Shown here: positions 3,982 through 17,444 of the stretch, piece by piece
How the letters are laid out: every line of letters begins with the position of its first letter
How positions within the stretch are numbered: position 1 is the stretch's first letter
Source: a virus
IMG/VR virus record: IMGVR_UViG_3300032093_000819
Location: 1-24,237 of that record
DNA: 24,237 nt
Reading direction: 5' to 3' (one strand)
Made by a program: the position numbers and the translations under genes
Notes under the pieces: generated by a model
The model's database searches: none
The model's input: only the letters and a program-made list of their open reading frames with translations
Told to the model about the DNA's origin: nothing

Positions 3982-4009
3982 TCCACTCTAAACAAACGAA
4001 AGGTAACAA

Positions 4010-4264: not shown

Positions 4265-4286
4265 TGTCGGTGGGCTAGTGTATAAT
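4265..4286 (+). promoter_or_regulatory. Promoter P11 with TGTC box and flanking inverted repeat
   Basis: TGTCGGTGG (4265-4273), 7 nt, TATAAT (4281-4286). A perfect 9-bp inverted repeat, GTGGGCTAG (4270-4278) and CTAGCCCAC (4287-4295), brackets the -10. Confidence 0.7.
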
Positions 4287-4315
4287 CTAGCCCACTAACA
4301 AACGAAAGGAAACAA

Positions 4316-4591
4316 ATGTTATCAACCGCAACCGCTCTTATTCAGGCAACTGAAGAAAGTATTTTTGACGAGGAAGTAATGGGCTTTGCTCAGGCTTTCT
4401 GCCACCACGCTAAAGAATTGGATAACGAACAATTCGCTAAATCTATTTATGTTTATTCTTGTATGCTTGCTTCTCTCGCAGTAGATAAGGCTATGAAAGT
4501 CTTACTAAATGAGGAACAAATCATAGACCTAATGAACGCTATTGACGAACTAGAAACAATGAGAGATGAGGTAATGAAAGATGGGAAGTAA
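4316..4591 (+). CDS. Helical hypothetical protein (91 aa)
   Basis: Not recognised. The leader CAAACGAAAGGAA is the exact 13-nt complement of the unpaired segment of the ncRNA at 10953-11105. The protein is predicted all-helical, with a Cys/His pair near residues 31-33 and an acidic C terminus. It overlaps the next gene by 11 nt. Confidence 0.75.
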   Translation: MLSTATALIQATEESIFDEEVMGFAQAFCHHAKELDNEQFAKSIYVYSCMLASLAVDKAMKVLLNEEQIIDLMNAIDELETMRDEVMKDGK

Positions 4592-4903: not shown

Positions 4904-4927
4904 AACAACCCTAACGAAAGGAAAAAA

Positions 4928-5125: not shown

Positions 5126-5155
5126 CTCTCTCTAACCTAAACGAAAGGAAATCAA

Positions 5156-6237: not shown

Positions 6238-6267
6238 TGCTGCGTATCCCAACGAAAGGAAATAACT

Positions 6268-6793: not shown

Positions 6794-6809
6794 TAACGAA
6801 AGGAAAACA

Positions 6810-9099: not shown

Positions 9100-9173
9100 G
9101 GTTCGTTAGCTTAGTTGGATAAAGCGCTACCCTGTCACGGTAGAGATCACGGGTTCAAGTCCCGTACGAATCG
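9100..9173 (+). tRNA. tRNA-Asp (GUC)
   Basis: Full cloverleaf: acceptor GGTTCGT (9100-9106) with ACGAATC (9166-9172, one G-U pair), D stem GCTT/AAGC, anticodon stem CTACC/GGTAG with loop CTGTCAC and anticodon GTC (9134-9136), T arm ACGGG-TTCAAGT-CCCGT, discriminator G73, an Asp identity base. The 3' CCA is not encoded. The gene starts right after the DUF932 terminator T tract and is probably transcribed by read-through or from an unseen promoter. Confidence 0.92.
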
Positions 9174-9231
9174 CAAATGAGATTTTTATTCTCAATATGT
9201 GAGACGCCCGCAAACTTAAAGGCCAAATTTT

Positions 9232-10526: not shown

Positions 10527-10934
10527 ATGGGAGATAGAGCAAACTTTGGCTTTGTACAGCCAAACGGAAATACAATTGTGCTGTACGGGCACTGGGCTGG
10601 ACATCAAATGCTAGGCAAACTAGCGGACGCTGTCATCGCAGCACGACCACGTTGGTCGGACCCTGCATATGCTACACGCATTGCCATTAGTCAAATTATT
10701 GGTAATGATTGGAGCGACGAGACAGGCTATGGCCTGCATGTAAATGAAATTTCAGACAACGAGCACAAGATTGCTATCGTTGACTGGGACCAACAAATCT
10801 TTAGTCTTCATGAAGAGGACACATTCGCAAACACTGATAACAAGGTGCGTGGGATGAAGAACGAGGCAATTTTCACAATGGACCTTTCGACATTCTGTGA
10901 GAAGTATGCCCTGGAAGGAATGTTGGTCAACTAA
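10527..10934 (+). CDS. Conserved phage hypothetical protein (135 aa)
   Basis: MGDRANFGFVQPNGNTIVLYGHWAGHQM is the signature of an uncharacterised phage/actinobacterial protein; later motifs are RIAISQII, ETGYGLHVNEISDNEHKI and a C-terminal FTMDLSTFCEKY. Soluble. Ribosome site AAAGGCGGAATAACC just upstream, 2 nt after the previous stop. It is the last gene of the 9305-10934 run; the ncRNA promoter overlaps its end. Confidence 0.85.
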   Translation: MGDRANFGFVQPNGNTIVLYGHWAGHQMLGKLADAVIAARPRWSDPAYATRIAISQIIGNDWSDETGYGLHVNEISDNEHKIAIVDWDQQIFSLHEEDTFANTDNKVRGMKNEAIFTMDLSTFCEKYALEGMLVN

Positions 10935-10940
10935 ATATGC

Positions 10941-10946
10941 TATAAT
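10941..10946 (+). promoter_or_regulatory. Promoter for the ncRNA (extended -10)
   Basis: TGC-TATAAT directly after the stop of 10527-10934; no good -35 and no TGTC box. Expected +1 is about 10953. Confidence 0.6.
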
Positions 10947-10952
10947 ATGAAT

Positions 10953-11105
10953 AGGCCTGTATGGCCTGTTCATTGAGTAGTAGGGTGCGGCTATTAGGGA
11001 GTTCTCCCAAGTCGCTAAGTAAAGCAGGTTTACTTAATTCCTTTCGTTTGACTAGCAGCCCTACATTTTAAAATCCCCAGGAGTTGTTCACCTGGGGATC
11101 TTTCC
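10953..11105 (+). ncRNA. Probable structured small RNA with anti-ribosome-site segment
   Basis: About 150 nt with no usable ORF, between a -10 box and a terminator. Folding by eye: 5' hairpin AGGCC/GGCCT (10953-10967); closing stem GTAGGG (10980-10985) / CCCTAC (11059-11064); inside it, hairpin GCGGCU...GGGAG-UU-CUCCC...AGUCGC (10987-11015) and hairpin TAAGTAAA-GCAGG-TTTACTTA (11016-11036); then an unpaired stretch; then the terminator ATCCCCAGG (11073-11081) / CCTGGGGAT (11091-11099). The unpaired TTCCTTTCGTTTG (11038-11050) is the exact complement of the leader motif CAAACGAAAGGAA at 4299-4311 and pairs over 9-12 nt with many other left-arm leaders. It also resembles the anti-SD end of 16S rRNA. 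Role inferred: trans-acting control of phage translation. Confidence 0.65.
11073..11105 (+). terminator. Terminator of the ncRNA
   Basis: A 9-bp perfect stem with 9-nt loop, followed by CTTTCCTT. Confidence 0.75.
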
Positions 11106-11265
11106 TTGCCCGCAAAAGAATGAGGGTAGCATATGTCTTTTACGGATGTCAAATATATTTCCCGAAAATCTCACCATTTGGTCAAGCTTTGGTGTGATCC
11201 ACACCATATAGACAATTGTCGGTGGTCCGTTATATAATTAGGTCATATTAGCGAAAGGAAGCAAA
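11106..11265. other. Intergenic control block
   Basis: GCCCGCA half motif, TTTACGGATGTC, TTTCCCGAAAA (similar to 2281-2300), a perfect TGGTGTG-ATC-CACACCA palindrome (11190-11206) that differs from the CRP-like sites, and promoter P23. No gene seen. Confidence 0.5.
11209..11238 (+). promoter_or_regulatory. Promoter P23 with TGTC box
   Basis: TAGACA (11209-11214), 18 nt, TATAAT (11233-11238), TGTCGGTGG (11217-11225). It is the last TGTC-box promoter I see in the window. Confidence 0.7.
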
Positions 11266-12018
11266 ATGCCAAATTGGTGTTATAACGGATTGACAATCGA
11301 AGGCAATCCAGAACAAGTAAATAAATTGGTTGAGCAAATGAATCAACCATATAAGCAAGTCCATGATAACTGGAATATGGAAACTCATCAAATGGAGAAG
11401 AAGTTATCTACCTATCCAAATCCTGTGTTTGCATTCCATAATATCTATAATCATATTCAGGACGGTGTATCTGATGAGGTCTATCTTGGACAACCGCCTC
11501 GTGATATTCCTATTGAAGAGCAAATGCAATTCAAGACAAATGATTGGTATTCATGGAATGTCCGCAATTGGGGAACCAAATGGGATGTCGCTGTTGGCGA
11601 CAATGAGGCATACTCAGATACTTATATTGAGGGTCCTACAGAAAATGGAGAGAACCTTGTAGTTTATTATAACTTCCATACTGCTTGGTCTCCGCCAATG
11701 CCTGCCATGGAAAAACTATCTGCTCAGTATCCTAAATTACTCTTTACTTTATCATATGAGGAAGAGACAGGTTGGGGTGGGGAATGTGAATTCCTTCGTG
11801 GCAAAATGATTTCTGAATCTAGTTATGAGAATAAATGCAGAGATTGTGATTCAGAGAACACATTGGAATACTGTGAAAATGATTGTGGAGAAATCTGCAT
11901 GAAATGTAATTATATGGGTGAGGCAGACCTAGACTGTGTCGCAGAATGTCAGACCCATAAGATATACTTGGACGACGAGCATGTCCCTAGTTATAGAATG
12001 GAGCAAATCAATGGCTAG
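11266..12018 (+). CDS. YubB/DUF1281-like ferredoxin-fold protein with C-terminal zinc module (250 aa)
   Basis: MPNWCYNGLTIEGNPEQV is the typical start of the YubB (Api92-like) ferredoxin-fold family found on plasmids and phages. Family-like later motifs include WYSWNVRNWGTKWDVA (about 86-101) and FHTAWSPPMPAMEKLSAQYP (about 136-155). The last 60 residues add CRDCDSENTLEYC...CGEICMKC...DCVAEC, a Cys-rich extension that probably binds zinc. Function unknown. The ribosome site is GCGAAAGGAAGCAAAATG. It overlaps the next gene by 8 nt. Confidence 0.85.
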   Translation: MPNWCYNGLTIEGNPEQVNKLVEQMNQPYKQVHDNWNMETHQMEKKLSTYPNPVFAFHNIYNHIQDGVSDEVYLGQPPRDIPIEEQMQFKTNDWYSWNVRNWGTKWDVAVGDNEAYSDTYIEGPTENGENLVVYYNFHTAWSPPMPAMEKLSAQYPKLLFTLSYEEETGWGGECEFLRGKMISESSYENKCRDCDSENTLEYCENDCGEICMKCNYMGEADLDCVAECQTHKIYLDDEHVPSYRMEQING

Positions 12019-14809: not shown

Positions 14810-15286
14810 TTACTCTTCAAATGATTGTTGTGAAGCCCATAGAGCATCTTGATCTATTTGACTAGGATTAGTACCATTAGGGTATTGGTTATATTGGACT
14901 CCATTGGCTTCCCGCCCCTTTTGTTCTACAACAAATCCATTCTCCCTATCAAATAGGACATAGTCAAATTCTACAACTGTAAAGTACTGCTTGAAGGTTG
15001 AAATAACCTTATCTAGGTCTAGACTTCCGCATGTATAGAGATCGAATTGAATTAGCCCTGGATCTGTCTCATCCCAAATATGAAATGCGATATGGCTTGT
15101 TTCGATCATAACAATTGCGGTTAGACCTCTATTTCCAGGAACATCAACATAGGATGCAAATGGTCCTTTTATAATCTTCATATTAATCTGGTCGACTAGA
15201 AATTTAAGAAAATCAATTCCCTGTTCTTCTGTATTCATTGGATTAGCTACTTTAGCATTAACCAATAAGTGTTTGTGATATATCAT
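14810..15286 (-). CDS. S-adenosylmethionine decarboxylase-like protein (SpeD family, 158 aa)
   Basis: Prokaryotic AdoMetDC fold: KHLLVN start, GNRGLTAIVMIETSHIAFHIWDE (residues 51-73) and DLYTCG (82-87). AdoMetDC makes decarboxylated AdoMet for spermidine using a pyruvoyl group formed by cleavage at Glu-Ser. By alignment with the Thermotoga enzyme, Ser64, His69 and Cys86 match S63, H68 and C83, but the residue before the serine is Thr63 instead of Glu, and S55 is replaced by Thr56. Maturation is therefore uncertain, though I recall this ETSH form in other phage relatives. ATG 15286 has GGAAAGGTTTAAT; an in-frame upstream ATG (15331) lies in the neighbouring small gene. The C-terminal 40 residues are an Asn/Gln-rich extension. 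Confidence 0.85.
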   Translation of the reverse strand: MIYHKHLLVNAKVANPMNTEEQGIDFLKFLVDQINMKIIKGPFASYVDVPGNRGLTAIVMIETSHIAFHIWDETDPGLIQFDLYTCGSLDLDKVISTFKQYFTVVEFDYVLFDRENGFVVEQKGREANGVQYNQYPNGTNPSQIDQDALWASQQSFEE

Positions 15287-15287
15287 A

Positions 15288-15365
15288 TTAAACCTTTCCC
15301 TGTAAATATGCGAAGTAATTAAGTATAGCAAATAGTAGAATCAAAAGCCCTATAGCGTATTTCAT
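15288..15365 (-). CDS. Tiny membrane peptide (25 aa)
   Basis: MKYAIGLLILLFAILNYFAYLQGKV is nearly all one transmembrane helix (residues 4-20). The start overlaps the upstream stop (ATGA) behind GGCGGGAAAGA, and its end holds the ribosome site of the SpeD-like gene, so it fits the coupled chain exactly. Function unknown. Confidence 0.55.
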   Translation of the reverse strand: MKYAIGLLILLFAILNYFAYLQGKV

Positions 15366-16378: not shown

Positions 16379-16803
16379 TTTAGTTCCCCGTCCTTAACAA
16401 ATACTAAGCCAAAGGATTGGCCTGGATTTAGAGTAATATCTTTTGCCCCTACTTCAGCCCACCCGTATTTAGGAAATAAATTAAAGATATGTCTTTTATC
16501 TCTAACTATAATTGCCCAGTAAGCTTTCTCTGAAGGCATTGTGTCGCAAGGCTCTACTTCCCTTGATGGGAAACCGTTGACCCTGCATATTACCTGTAGC
16601 CCGTACTTGTTTGTTCCTTCTACCTTTATTTTAGCATTATCTAATATATCGTAGGCAGGAGTATTGTTCCCTGCTGTAATACATTGAGATACTTTTTTAT
16701 CTCCAAAGTCTATGTAAAGATTAACACACTCTGCAGGTTTTACTGCATATACCCCGCCAAGAATTAATACAAATATAAAAAGAACTGATAGTTTACTTTT
16801 CAT
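16366..16803 (-). CDS. Secreted DUF4430-like (transcobalamin C-terminal-like) protein (145 aa)
   Basis: MKSKLSVLFIFVLILGGVYA is a clear signal peptide or lipid-free anchor. The mature part looks like DUF4430: YIDFGDKKV, a NTPAYDIL stretch, NKYGLQVICRVNG, AYWAIIVRD and a final LNPGQSFGLVFV strand. The fold is shared with the C-terminal domain of transcobalamin, so ligand binding at the cell surface is possible. Three Cys could form a disulfide. ATG 16803 with TGGAAG is used; the longer frame to 16848 lies within the previous gene. It follows a cobalamin adenosyltransferase with an 11-nt overlap, which supports a cobalamin link. Confidence 0.6.
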   Translation of the reverse strand: MKSKLSVLFIFVLILGGVYAVKPAECVNLYIDFGDKKVSQCITAGNNTPAYDILDNAKIKVEGTNKYGLQVICRVNGFPSREVEPCDTMPSEKAYWAIIVRDKRHIFNLFPKYGWAEVGAKDITLNPGQSFGLVFVKDGELKWPD

Positions 16804-17311
16804 TAAACTTCCACAGCTTCTCCATGTTATAGTATCTAGCCATAACAAATAATAGATCTGATAGTCTATTTAGATATTTTGGAATCTCACGACTTATCTT
16901 TATTTCATCGTTGATTTCAAGTACTGCTATCGCTACCCATACAGATCTTTCTGCCCTTCTTACTACCGCCCTAGCATTGTGTAAAGGTCCTGTAGGCAAG
17001 ATAAAAGACGTTAGTGGCTCTAGATACTCATTGTAATCATCAATAATAGTCTCTAGCCACTCAACACGTTCTGGGGTTATCTTAATTGTTTGTGATCCAG
17101 CCAATTCAGCTCCAAGATCAAATAGATCTTGCTGAATCATATCAATAATATCTGTTCTGTCTGTCATTCCGATAGCAGAGTTTGCCTCATCTACTGAGCC
17201 TATGGCATCAATTAGTGGGCTGCTCTTATATACTTGCTCGTTACCACCGATAGAAGTTAATCCTTCATCGCCAGTTTTTGTGTATATCTTAGTTAATCTA
17301 TTCTTCGTCAT
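16793..17311 (-). CDS. PduO-type cob(I)alamin adenosyltransferase (172 aa)
   Basis: Transfers the adenosyl group of ATP to cob(I)alamin to make adenosylcobalamin in the cytosol. Family motifs are all present: TKIYTKTGDEGLT (ATP loop, about residues 7-19), IGSVDEANSAIG, NARAVVRRAERSVW (about 126-139) and NRLSDLLFVMARYYN near the C terminus. Length is close to the family norm. ATG 17311 is chosen; an upstream TTG frame is unlikely. It overlaps a small membrane-protein gene and the DUF4430-like gene, so all three are coupled. I see no B12-dependent enzyme in the window. No symbol is given because pduO/cobA2 naming depends on context. Confidence 0.9.
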   Translation of the reverse strand: MTKNRLTKIYTKTGDEGLTSIGGNEQVYKSSPLIDAIGSVDEANSAIGMTDRTDIIDMIQQDLFDLGAELAGSQTIKITPERVEWLETIIDDYNEYLEPLTSFILPTGPLHNARAVVRRAERSVWVAIAVLEINDEIKISREIPKYLNRLSDLLFVMARYYNMEKLWKFNEK

Positions 17312-17444
17312 CAAAATCCACTTCAAATGGATCGGAAAGATCTAGATTTTCTAGACCTTCTAAAGACTTAAAAGCAACCACGGCTGTAATAGCCATAACT
17401 GCTAGTAGTCCTGCAACAATAATCACCTTCTTATTCAATCCCAT
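17298..17444 (-). CDS. Small membrane protein with acidic tail (48 aa)
   Basis: A short basic N terminus (MGLNKK), one transmembrane segment (about residues 7-25) and a very acidic tail (DPFEVDFDDEE) give an N-in or signal-anchor topology. It overlaps both neighbours (17435-17608 and the adenosyltransferase), so it is probably part of that transcript. Function unknown. Confidence 0.65.
   Translation of the reverse strand: MGLNKKVIIVAGLLAVMAITAVVAFKSLEGLENLDLSDPFEVDFDDEE

Follow-up and report, generated by a model that had tools for sequence, protein, structure and literature searches.

Intergenic stretches that bear complementarity to the ribosome sites of several genes of the same phage raise the question of whether they encode a regulator of those genes. 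Such a stretch, at positions 10953-11105, lies between the genes at 10527-10934 and 11266-12018 of a 24,237-nt IMG/VR fragment, which was analysed over its whole length and is referred to here as the window. We asked whether this unit specifies a structured RNA, whether its unpaired sequence matches a defined set of leaders, and how such an RNA would act.

A structured RNA behind one phage gene

Every part of the promoter-hairpins-terminator unit proposed in the initial annotation is found in the sequence. On the plus strand, an extended -10 promoter, TGcTATAAT (TGCTATAAT; TG at 10938-10939 and TATAAT at 10941-10946), precedes a 5' hairpin, AGGCC-UGUAU-GGCCU (10953-10967), which is present in many relatives, not in all. 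The unit ends in an intrinsic terminator, in which AUCCCCAGG pairs with CCUGGGGAU ahead of CUUUCCUU (11073-11107). The minimum free energy fold of the unit (-53.2 kcal/mol, z -3.33), which is equalled by 1 of 200 shuffled sequences, contains both this terminator and the junction described below. The same signals recur among the 78 distinct RNA copies with flanks that form our comparison set: TGnTATA(A/C)T is located upstream of 60 of them and TATAAT or TATACT upstream of 64, and 54 have a terminator-like 3' end by a strict rule. Judged by these signals, the locus is a discrete intergenic unit with its own promoter and terminator, as expected for a trans-acting antisense small RNA.

Several other elements accompany the unit. 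Beyond the terminator lies a conserved GCCCGCA..(U)GAGGGUA element (11108-11134), which 57 of 78 relatives have at the corresponding position; a TTTACGG..GTCAAAT stretch, likewise conserved, comes after it. A gene for tRNA-Asp (GTC; 9100-9174) is located upstream of the RNA at a distance of about 1.8 kb, and the minus strand carries two possible auxiliary metabolic genes, one for an S-adenosylmethionine decarboxylase (14810-15331; Pfam) and one resembling cobalamin adenosyltransferases (16793-17326).

The core of the RNA (10980-11064, plus strand) is a three-way junction, supported by covariation among 39 aligned sequences. P1 joins GUAGGG (10980-10985) to CCCUAC (11059-11064). The P2 arm (10987-11015), which contains an inner hairpin, joins GCGGCU (10987-10992) to AGUCGC (11010-11015), and reads GCCGCU/AGUGGC, GCAUCU/AGAUGC, GCAACU/AGUUGC, GCCCCU/AGGGGU or GCUUCU/AGGAGC in other phages. 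The P3 arm (11024-11056) joins GCAG (11024-11027) to CU-A-GC (11052-11056) with a bulged A; its stem letters also covary among phages, with GC-AUCGG/CCGAU-A-GC or GC-GUUGGU/ACCGAC-U-GC found elsewhere. In the alignment, 93.8% of the P1-P3 cells are paired, versus 77.7% in shuffles, and 107 double-sided changes are seen, versus 33.3, distributed over five pairs in P1, two in P2 and three in P3. The covariation score of 0.414 (0.139 in shuffles) was reached by none of 500 shuffles, and related phages thus do carry the compensating stem changes by which the fold was to be judged. Sliding the partner columns by one to three positions destroyed the signal, and RNAalifold, run without an input structure, returned the same three helices.

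The initial annotation had described a junction with two perfect hairpins. The junction stands, whereas the second hairpin, formed by UAAGUAAA (11016-11023) and UUUACUUA (11029-11036), was rejected as a universal arm, since this extra pairing (11016-11036) is confined to one subset of the RNAs and would be pseudoknotted with P3; the conserved third arm is GCAG/CU-A-GC. The UAAnUAA sequence is conserved also in RNAs that have no pairing partner for it. Together with GGUGC and GCAGCC, these conserved letters outside the loop suggest a binding partner or a tertiary fold that an antisense model does not explain.

The distribution of the RNA was followed with the protein of the upstream gene (10527-10934, plus strand) as a synteny marker, which identified 78 loci in IMG/VR. 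The RNA is present in nearly all marker loci that extend past this gene. The exceptions among the loci that were read are L074, whose sequence stops at the marker gene, and L076, where a bare hairpin stands instead. Two pattern scans added further copies and completed the comparison set; the RNA is nearly always located behind one and the same phage gene. A covariance model of the family, R1, scores 78.5 bits (E 1e-17) at 10977-11067 of the window, itself among the sequences used to build R1, and the window RNA has the features that define the family: the P1-P2-P3 junction, an invariant CUUUCGUU loop and the position behind the marker gene. No Rfam 15 family was found for the RNA in either gathering or E-value mode (best score 17.7 bits, with a cut-off of 53), and the only Rfam match in the window was the tRNA. 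Searches by DNA similarity in isolate phages returned no match to the window and no relative of the RNA, those in plasmids gave chance matches only, and a 30-letter RNA pattern had no match in the genomes of 84,980 bacterial and archaeal species. A literature search found no description of the family. We classify the RNA as a new family, within a kind of regulator, antisense RNA at ribosome sites, that is itself known.

The RNA-bearing phages are large freshwater phages, probably of Actinomycetota. The tblastn matches of the marker gene among cultured phages are all actinophages (DSL-LC01 from Dishui Lake, and phages of Streptomyces, Gordonia and Nocardia), and one of the neighbouring genes shares 50% identity with Streptomyces phages, which points to freshwater actinobacteria as the likely hosts. 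Phages of freshwater actinobacteria are numerous. When the cobalamin adenosyltransferase gene was used to search for the host, most matches were proteobacterial and no host emerged. In the Streptomyces phages StarPlatinum (L179, 5418-5697) and Yaboi (L181, 3416-3694), a tmRNA gene lies directly behind the homolog of the marker gene; the site behind this gene therefore tends to hold RNA genes. Unlike these Stanwilliamsviridae, the window contains no tmRNA detectable by ARAGORN or Rfam.

The anti-leader loop and its candidate targets

P3 closes a loop bearing the anti-leader sequence UUCCUUUCGUUUG (11038-11050, plus strand), which was recognized from its complementarity and from a comparison of 48 distinct loops. 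The eight-letter core, CUUUCGUU (11041-11048), is invariant in these loops, which were collected with the core in the search pattern; the 78 loci found through the marker protein show the same core. The preceding letter is C, A or U, and the letters beyond are variable. Complementarity to the leaders is thereby kept in the relatives, as the proposal of a regulator demands. In the window RNA, ten of the thirteen bases are predicted to be unpaired with probabilities of 0.78-0.99 and three with 0.41-0.47, so that the loop presents a predicted accessible seed with complements in several mRNAs from other loci, a further property of trans-acting antisense RNAs.

The claimed 13-nt match is exact: positions 11038-11050 are fully complementary to the leader CAAACGAAAGGAA at 4299-4311, ahead of the ATG at 4316. 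Complements of 11-12 nt are found at seven other plus-strand leaders, all with the sequence AACGAAAGG. These belong to the ATGs at 2853 (leader 2834-2842, behind TGTCGGTGG..TATAAT; 12 nt at 2833), 2983 (2965-2973; 11 nt at 2965), 4010 (3995-4003; 11 nt at 3993), 4928 (4913-4921; 11 nt at 4913), 5156 (5140-5148; 12 nt at 5139), 6268 (6251-6259; 11 nt at 6251) and 6810 (6795-6803; 11 nt at 6795). The gene just behind the RNA (11266-12018), encoding a DUF1281_C protein, has a variant leader, AGCGAAAGG (11250-11258, plus strand), which is AACGAAAGG in several relatives. The spacing between leader and ATG is normal for ribosome sites, the leaders are located near the 5' ends of short UTRs, and seven of nine window leaders are predicted to be mostly unstructured (0.69-0.84 unpaired).

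Five near-complete genomes of 104-120 kb show how restricted the motif is. Their regulon strands have 10, 7, 9, 5 and 6 copies of AACGAAAGG (37 in total), confined to 6-9 kb in the same stretch as the RNA, and the opposite strand has exactly one in each of the five genomes, always at the RNA loop, a distribution beyond what chance would give. The sequences AAAGAAAGG, AATGAAAGG and AAGGAAAGG are rare in these genomes. CGAAAGG precedes only 7-10 of the approximately 174-191 called genes per genome; therefore, the leader marks a regulon and is not the general ribosome site of the phage, contrary to what the description of a common ribosome-site leader had implied. The opposite strand of the loop was also considered as a leader in its own right and rejected, because the antisense AACGAAAGG has no open reading frame behind it in relatives.

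We compiled a leader profile from 812 distinct sequences behind TGTCRGT..TATAAT-like promoters, chance matches included, 464 of which contain AACGAAAGG. Aligned only on AAAGG, the profile has the 5' letters A (.91), A (.89), C (.85) and G (.94), and falls to.37 at the next position outward, so that the leader motif stops on its 5' side at the position where the loop motif stops on its 3' side. With almost no variation in either core, co-variation of individual letters between loop and leader could not be demonstrated; AACGAAAGG leaders also occur together with RNAs that have ACUUUCGUU or UCUUUCGUU. From these sequences the regulon appears to comprise about 5-10 genes behind TGTCRGTGG..TATAAT promoters in an early-type cluster, which, like the early regions of related phages, consists of short genes of unknown function. 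The promoter class, TGTC(G/A)GTGG followed after 6 to 12 nt by TATAAT, is found at 2.8-11.3 kb of the window and in relatives; its spacer is too short for an ordinary -35 box, and it is probably a phage-specific promoter or operator. The TGTCRGTG box is present at none of the 78 RNAs, while the target genes have it, and the promoter class of the RNA is therefore a different one.

In some phages the anti-leader sequence is displayed on another scaffold. Locus L076 has a bare hairpin, GUGGGGAGG-UUUCCUUUCGUUCU-CCCUCCCCAC, in place of the junction, and in the syntenic RNAs of L333 and L368 UUCCUUUCGC or ACCUUUC is displayed in the P2 loop, while P3 forms a plain hairpin. Such scaffold swaps are, in our view, the strongest signs in the sequences that displaying the loop may be the function of the RNA. 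L333 and L368 also contain stand-alone hairpins with the loop CCUUUCGUU (reverse complement, 7180 and 4965, respectively), located after a stop codon and ahead of the next promoter, which are possibly a second anti-leader RNA in the same phage.

Uniform leaders also occur where the RNA was not detected. The Actinomycetia phage DSL-LC01 (L182-L184, OQ999401) has about 22 genes with the leader ACGACGAAAGGACAA behind CTAAAG.TGTTATAAT promoters, and neither model R1 nor comparison detected an antisense RNA in it. The 106-kb genome G020 likewise has uniform leaders and no detected RNA, as do perhaps G022 and G023; most other leader-bearing contigs that initially lacked the RNA are truncated loci. 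Pairing alone thus does not explain the conservation of the leaders, as the initial annotation had supposed, and another reason must exist. Since uniformity of the leaders did not need the RNA, the RNA more likely evolved on a pre-existing leader. A candidate for the RNA in DSL-LC01, CACUUUCGUUG at position 4278, was rejected by model R1. The intergenic stretch at 4246-4280 of L182 contains CCTAAGGTAGCGA near CACTTTCGTTG, perhaps the remnant of a homing site; CCTAAGGTAGCGA presumably reads as in 23S rRNA.

A proposed antisense mechanism and competing readings

We consider it probable, on the sequence evidence above, that the RNA acts in trans as an antisense RNA blocking the ribosome sites of the early-type regulon, in the manner of RegA but as an RNA. 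The RNA's own extended -10 promoter would direct transcription as far as the intrinsic terminator, yielding an RNA of 100-150 nt that folds into the P1-P2-P3 junction and displays (N)CUUUCGUU in the P3 loop. This loop may then pair with AACGAAAG(G), which contains the ribosome site, on about 5-10 mRNAs. Pairing would cover the ribosome site and exclude the 30S subunit, lowering translation and stability of the whole set. The sign of the effect would thus be repression, judging solely from where the pairing falls. Because its promoter differs from those of the targets, the RNA could turn the regulon off at a set time or act as a brake on it.

The loop might instead mimic the anti-Shine-Dalgarno tail of 16S rRNA and act as a general decoy or inhibitor of host and phage translation, with no chosen regulon. 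Its letters UCCUUUC are also part of the usual bacterial 16S tail (the tail of the host may differ), and strong pairing is predicted for certain other phage genes with GAAAGG sites, individual non-regulon genes attaining -16 to -20 kcal/mol with the loop. On average, however, the loops distinguish the regulon: predicted mean energies are -13.9 to -18.5 kcal/mol with regulon leaders and -8.9 to -11.2 kcal/mol with other ribosome-site genes, some 4.5-7.5 kcal/mol weaker, versus -6.8 to -9.8 kcal/mol for shuffled loops. Mean non-regulon pairing is about what the 16S tail would give, with the reservation that the host's own tail may differ. Moreover, the GUU within the invariant core finds its complement in the AAC of the leader, not in a ribosome-site core, and the RNA is located inside its own target cluster. 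We therefore regard a general decoy, which the initial annotation had also entertained, as improbable. Activation, in which the RNA would bring AACGAAAGG mRNAs to the ribosome or protect their 5' ends so that the regulon is translated preferentially, is unlikely too, with slightly more to commend it: the leaders lie near the 5' ends of short UTRs, where pairing can protect an mRNA, the conserved scaffold might be a binding site for a protein or for the ribosome, and the leaders persist in all relatives. But the pairing would cover the ribosome site itself, bare hairpins such as that of L076 also serve, and the leaders, seven of nine being largely unpaired in the window, leave little for an activating RNA to open.

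Two further readings deny the leaders the role of targets. If they were sponges that titrate the RNA, whose real partner would be a protein or a host RNA, the conserved letters outside the loop would find an explanation; yet the leaders stand at ribosome sites with normal ATG spacing, also in relatives without the RNA, and so are ribosome sites first of all, which makes this reading very unlikely. Least probable by our estimate is that loop and leader are conserved separately, for instance as a structured 3' end or attenuator, and never pair. The uniform leaders of DSL-LC01 and G020 would fit such a by-product, but an invariant 8-mer match is very unlikely to arise by accident on at least three unrelated scaffolds, as is a loop that is the sole antisense copy in all five genomes.

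Beyond the preferred antisense repressor, we speculate, with little expectation that it is so, that the RNA is a mobile anti-Shine-Dalgarno element made by the phage, with a conserved junction that docks on the ribosome or on a phage protein and a loop that picks out AACGAAAGG mRNAs. If this were true, an RNA would set in trans which phage genes the ribosome reads, and wherever other actinophages have uniform start-associated leaders, RNA partners of a similar sort would await discovery.

Relation to known systems

The closest system in terms of the problem is that of the Start-Associated Sequences (SAS/ESAS) of cluster K mycobacteriophages (PMC3203893) and cluster EF Microbacterium phages (PMC7302621). 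Like the present leaders, these are ribosome-site leaders at many actinophage genes (approximately 10-17 per phage) that are more conserved than pairing with 16S rRNA needs (PMC3203893, PMC7302621), and Pope et al. raised the possibility that a phage RNA or protein binds them (PMC3203893). They differ in their motif, GGGATAGGAGCCC, and in that no RNA partner is established; the present leader, AACGAAAGG, does not match the SAS consensus and is analogous, not a member. Among the cluster K phages examined, an antisense SAS in a hairpin loop was found in Anaya and Amelie only, being altered in Hammy and missing in six other SAS-bearing phages. The lone copy in Anaya (JF704106, 59870-59882; L453, 9870-9882) sits in the loop of a hairpin that is strong and occupies a conserved intergenic gap. 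We did not accept these hairpins as support and treat them as a lead only, as most SAS-bearing relatives lack them and one-mismatch matches were just as numerous with control patterns. The early genes of Jay2Jay (Stanwilliamsviridae) have no common leader.

In logic, the proposed RNA is closest to T4 RegA and to the c4 and sar RNAs. RegA covers the initiation regions of about 30 phage mRNAs in competition with the ribosome (PMC3014915); it is likewise phage-encoded and blocks many phage initiation regions, but it is a protein, and its sites overlap or adjoin the AUG and share no clear common sequence (PMC3014915). The c4 RNA of P1 and P7 and the sar RNA of P22 act by pairing with a phage ribosome site and thereby blocking it, in the case of c4 probably via loops (PMC12197685). 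Each of the two has one target, an antirepressor message, whereas here some ten separate mRNAs share one leader. RsaE/RoxS pairs through C-rich unpaired stretches with the ribosome sites of several mRNAs. This small RNA of Firmicutes (PMC4409812) is alike in its way of working and differs in being host-encoded with metabolic targets. No relation in sequence or structure was found between it and the present RNA.

To our knowledge, the phage RNAs known to block ribosome sites act on one message. The RNA described here would serve a whole early-type regulon and is recognizable by sequence alone in dozens of environmental phages. It offers a concrete model for a question posed in 2011, namely whether the over-conserved start-associated sequences of actinophages have a binding partner and what it might be.
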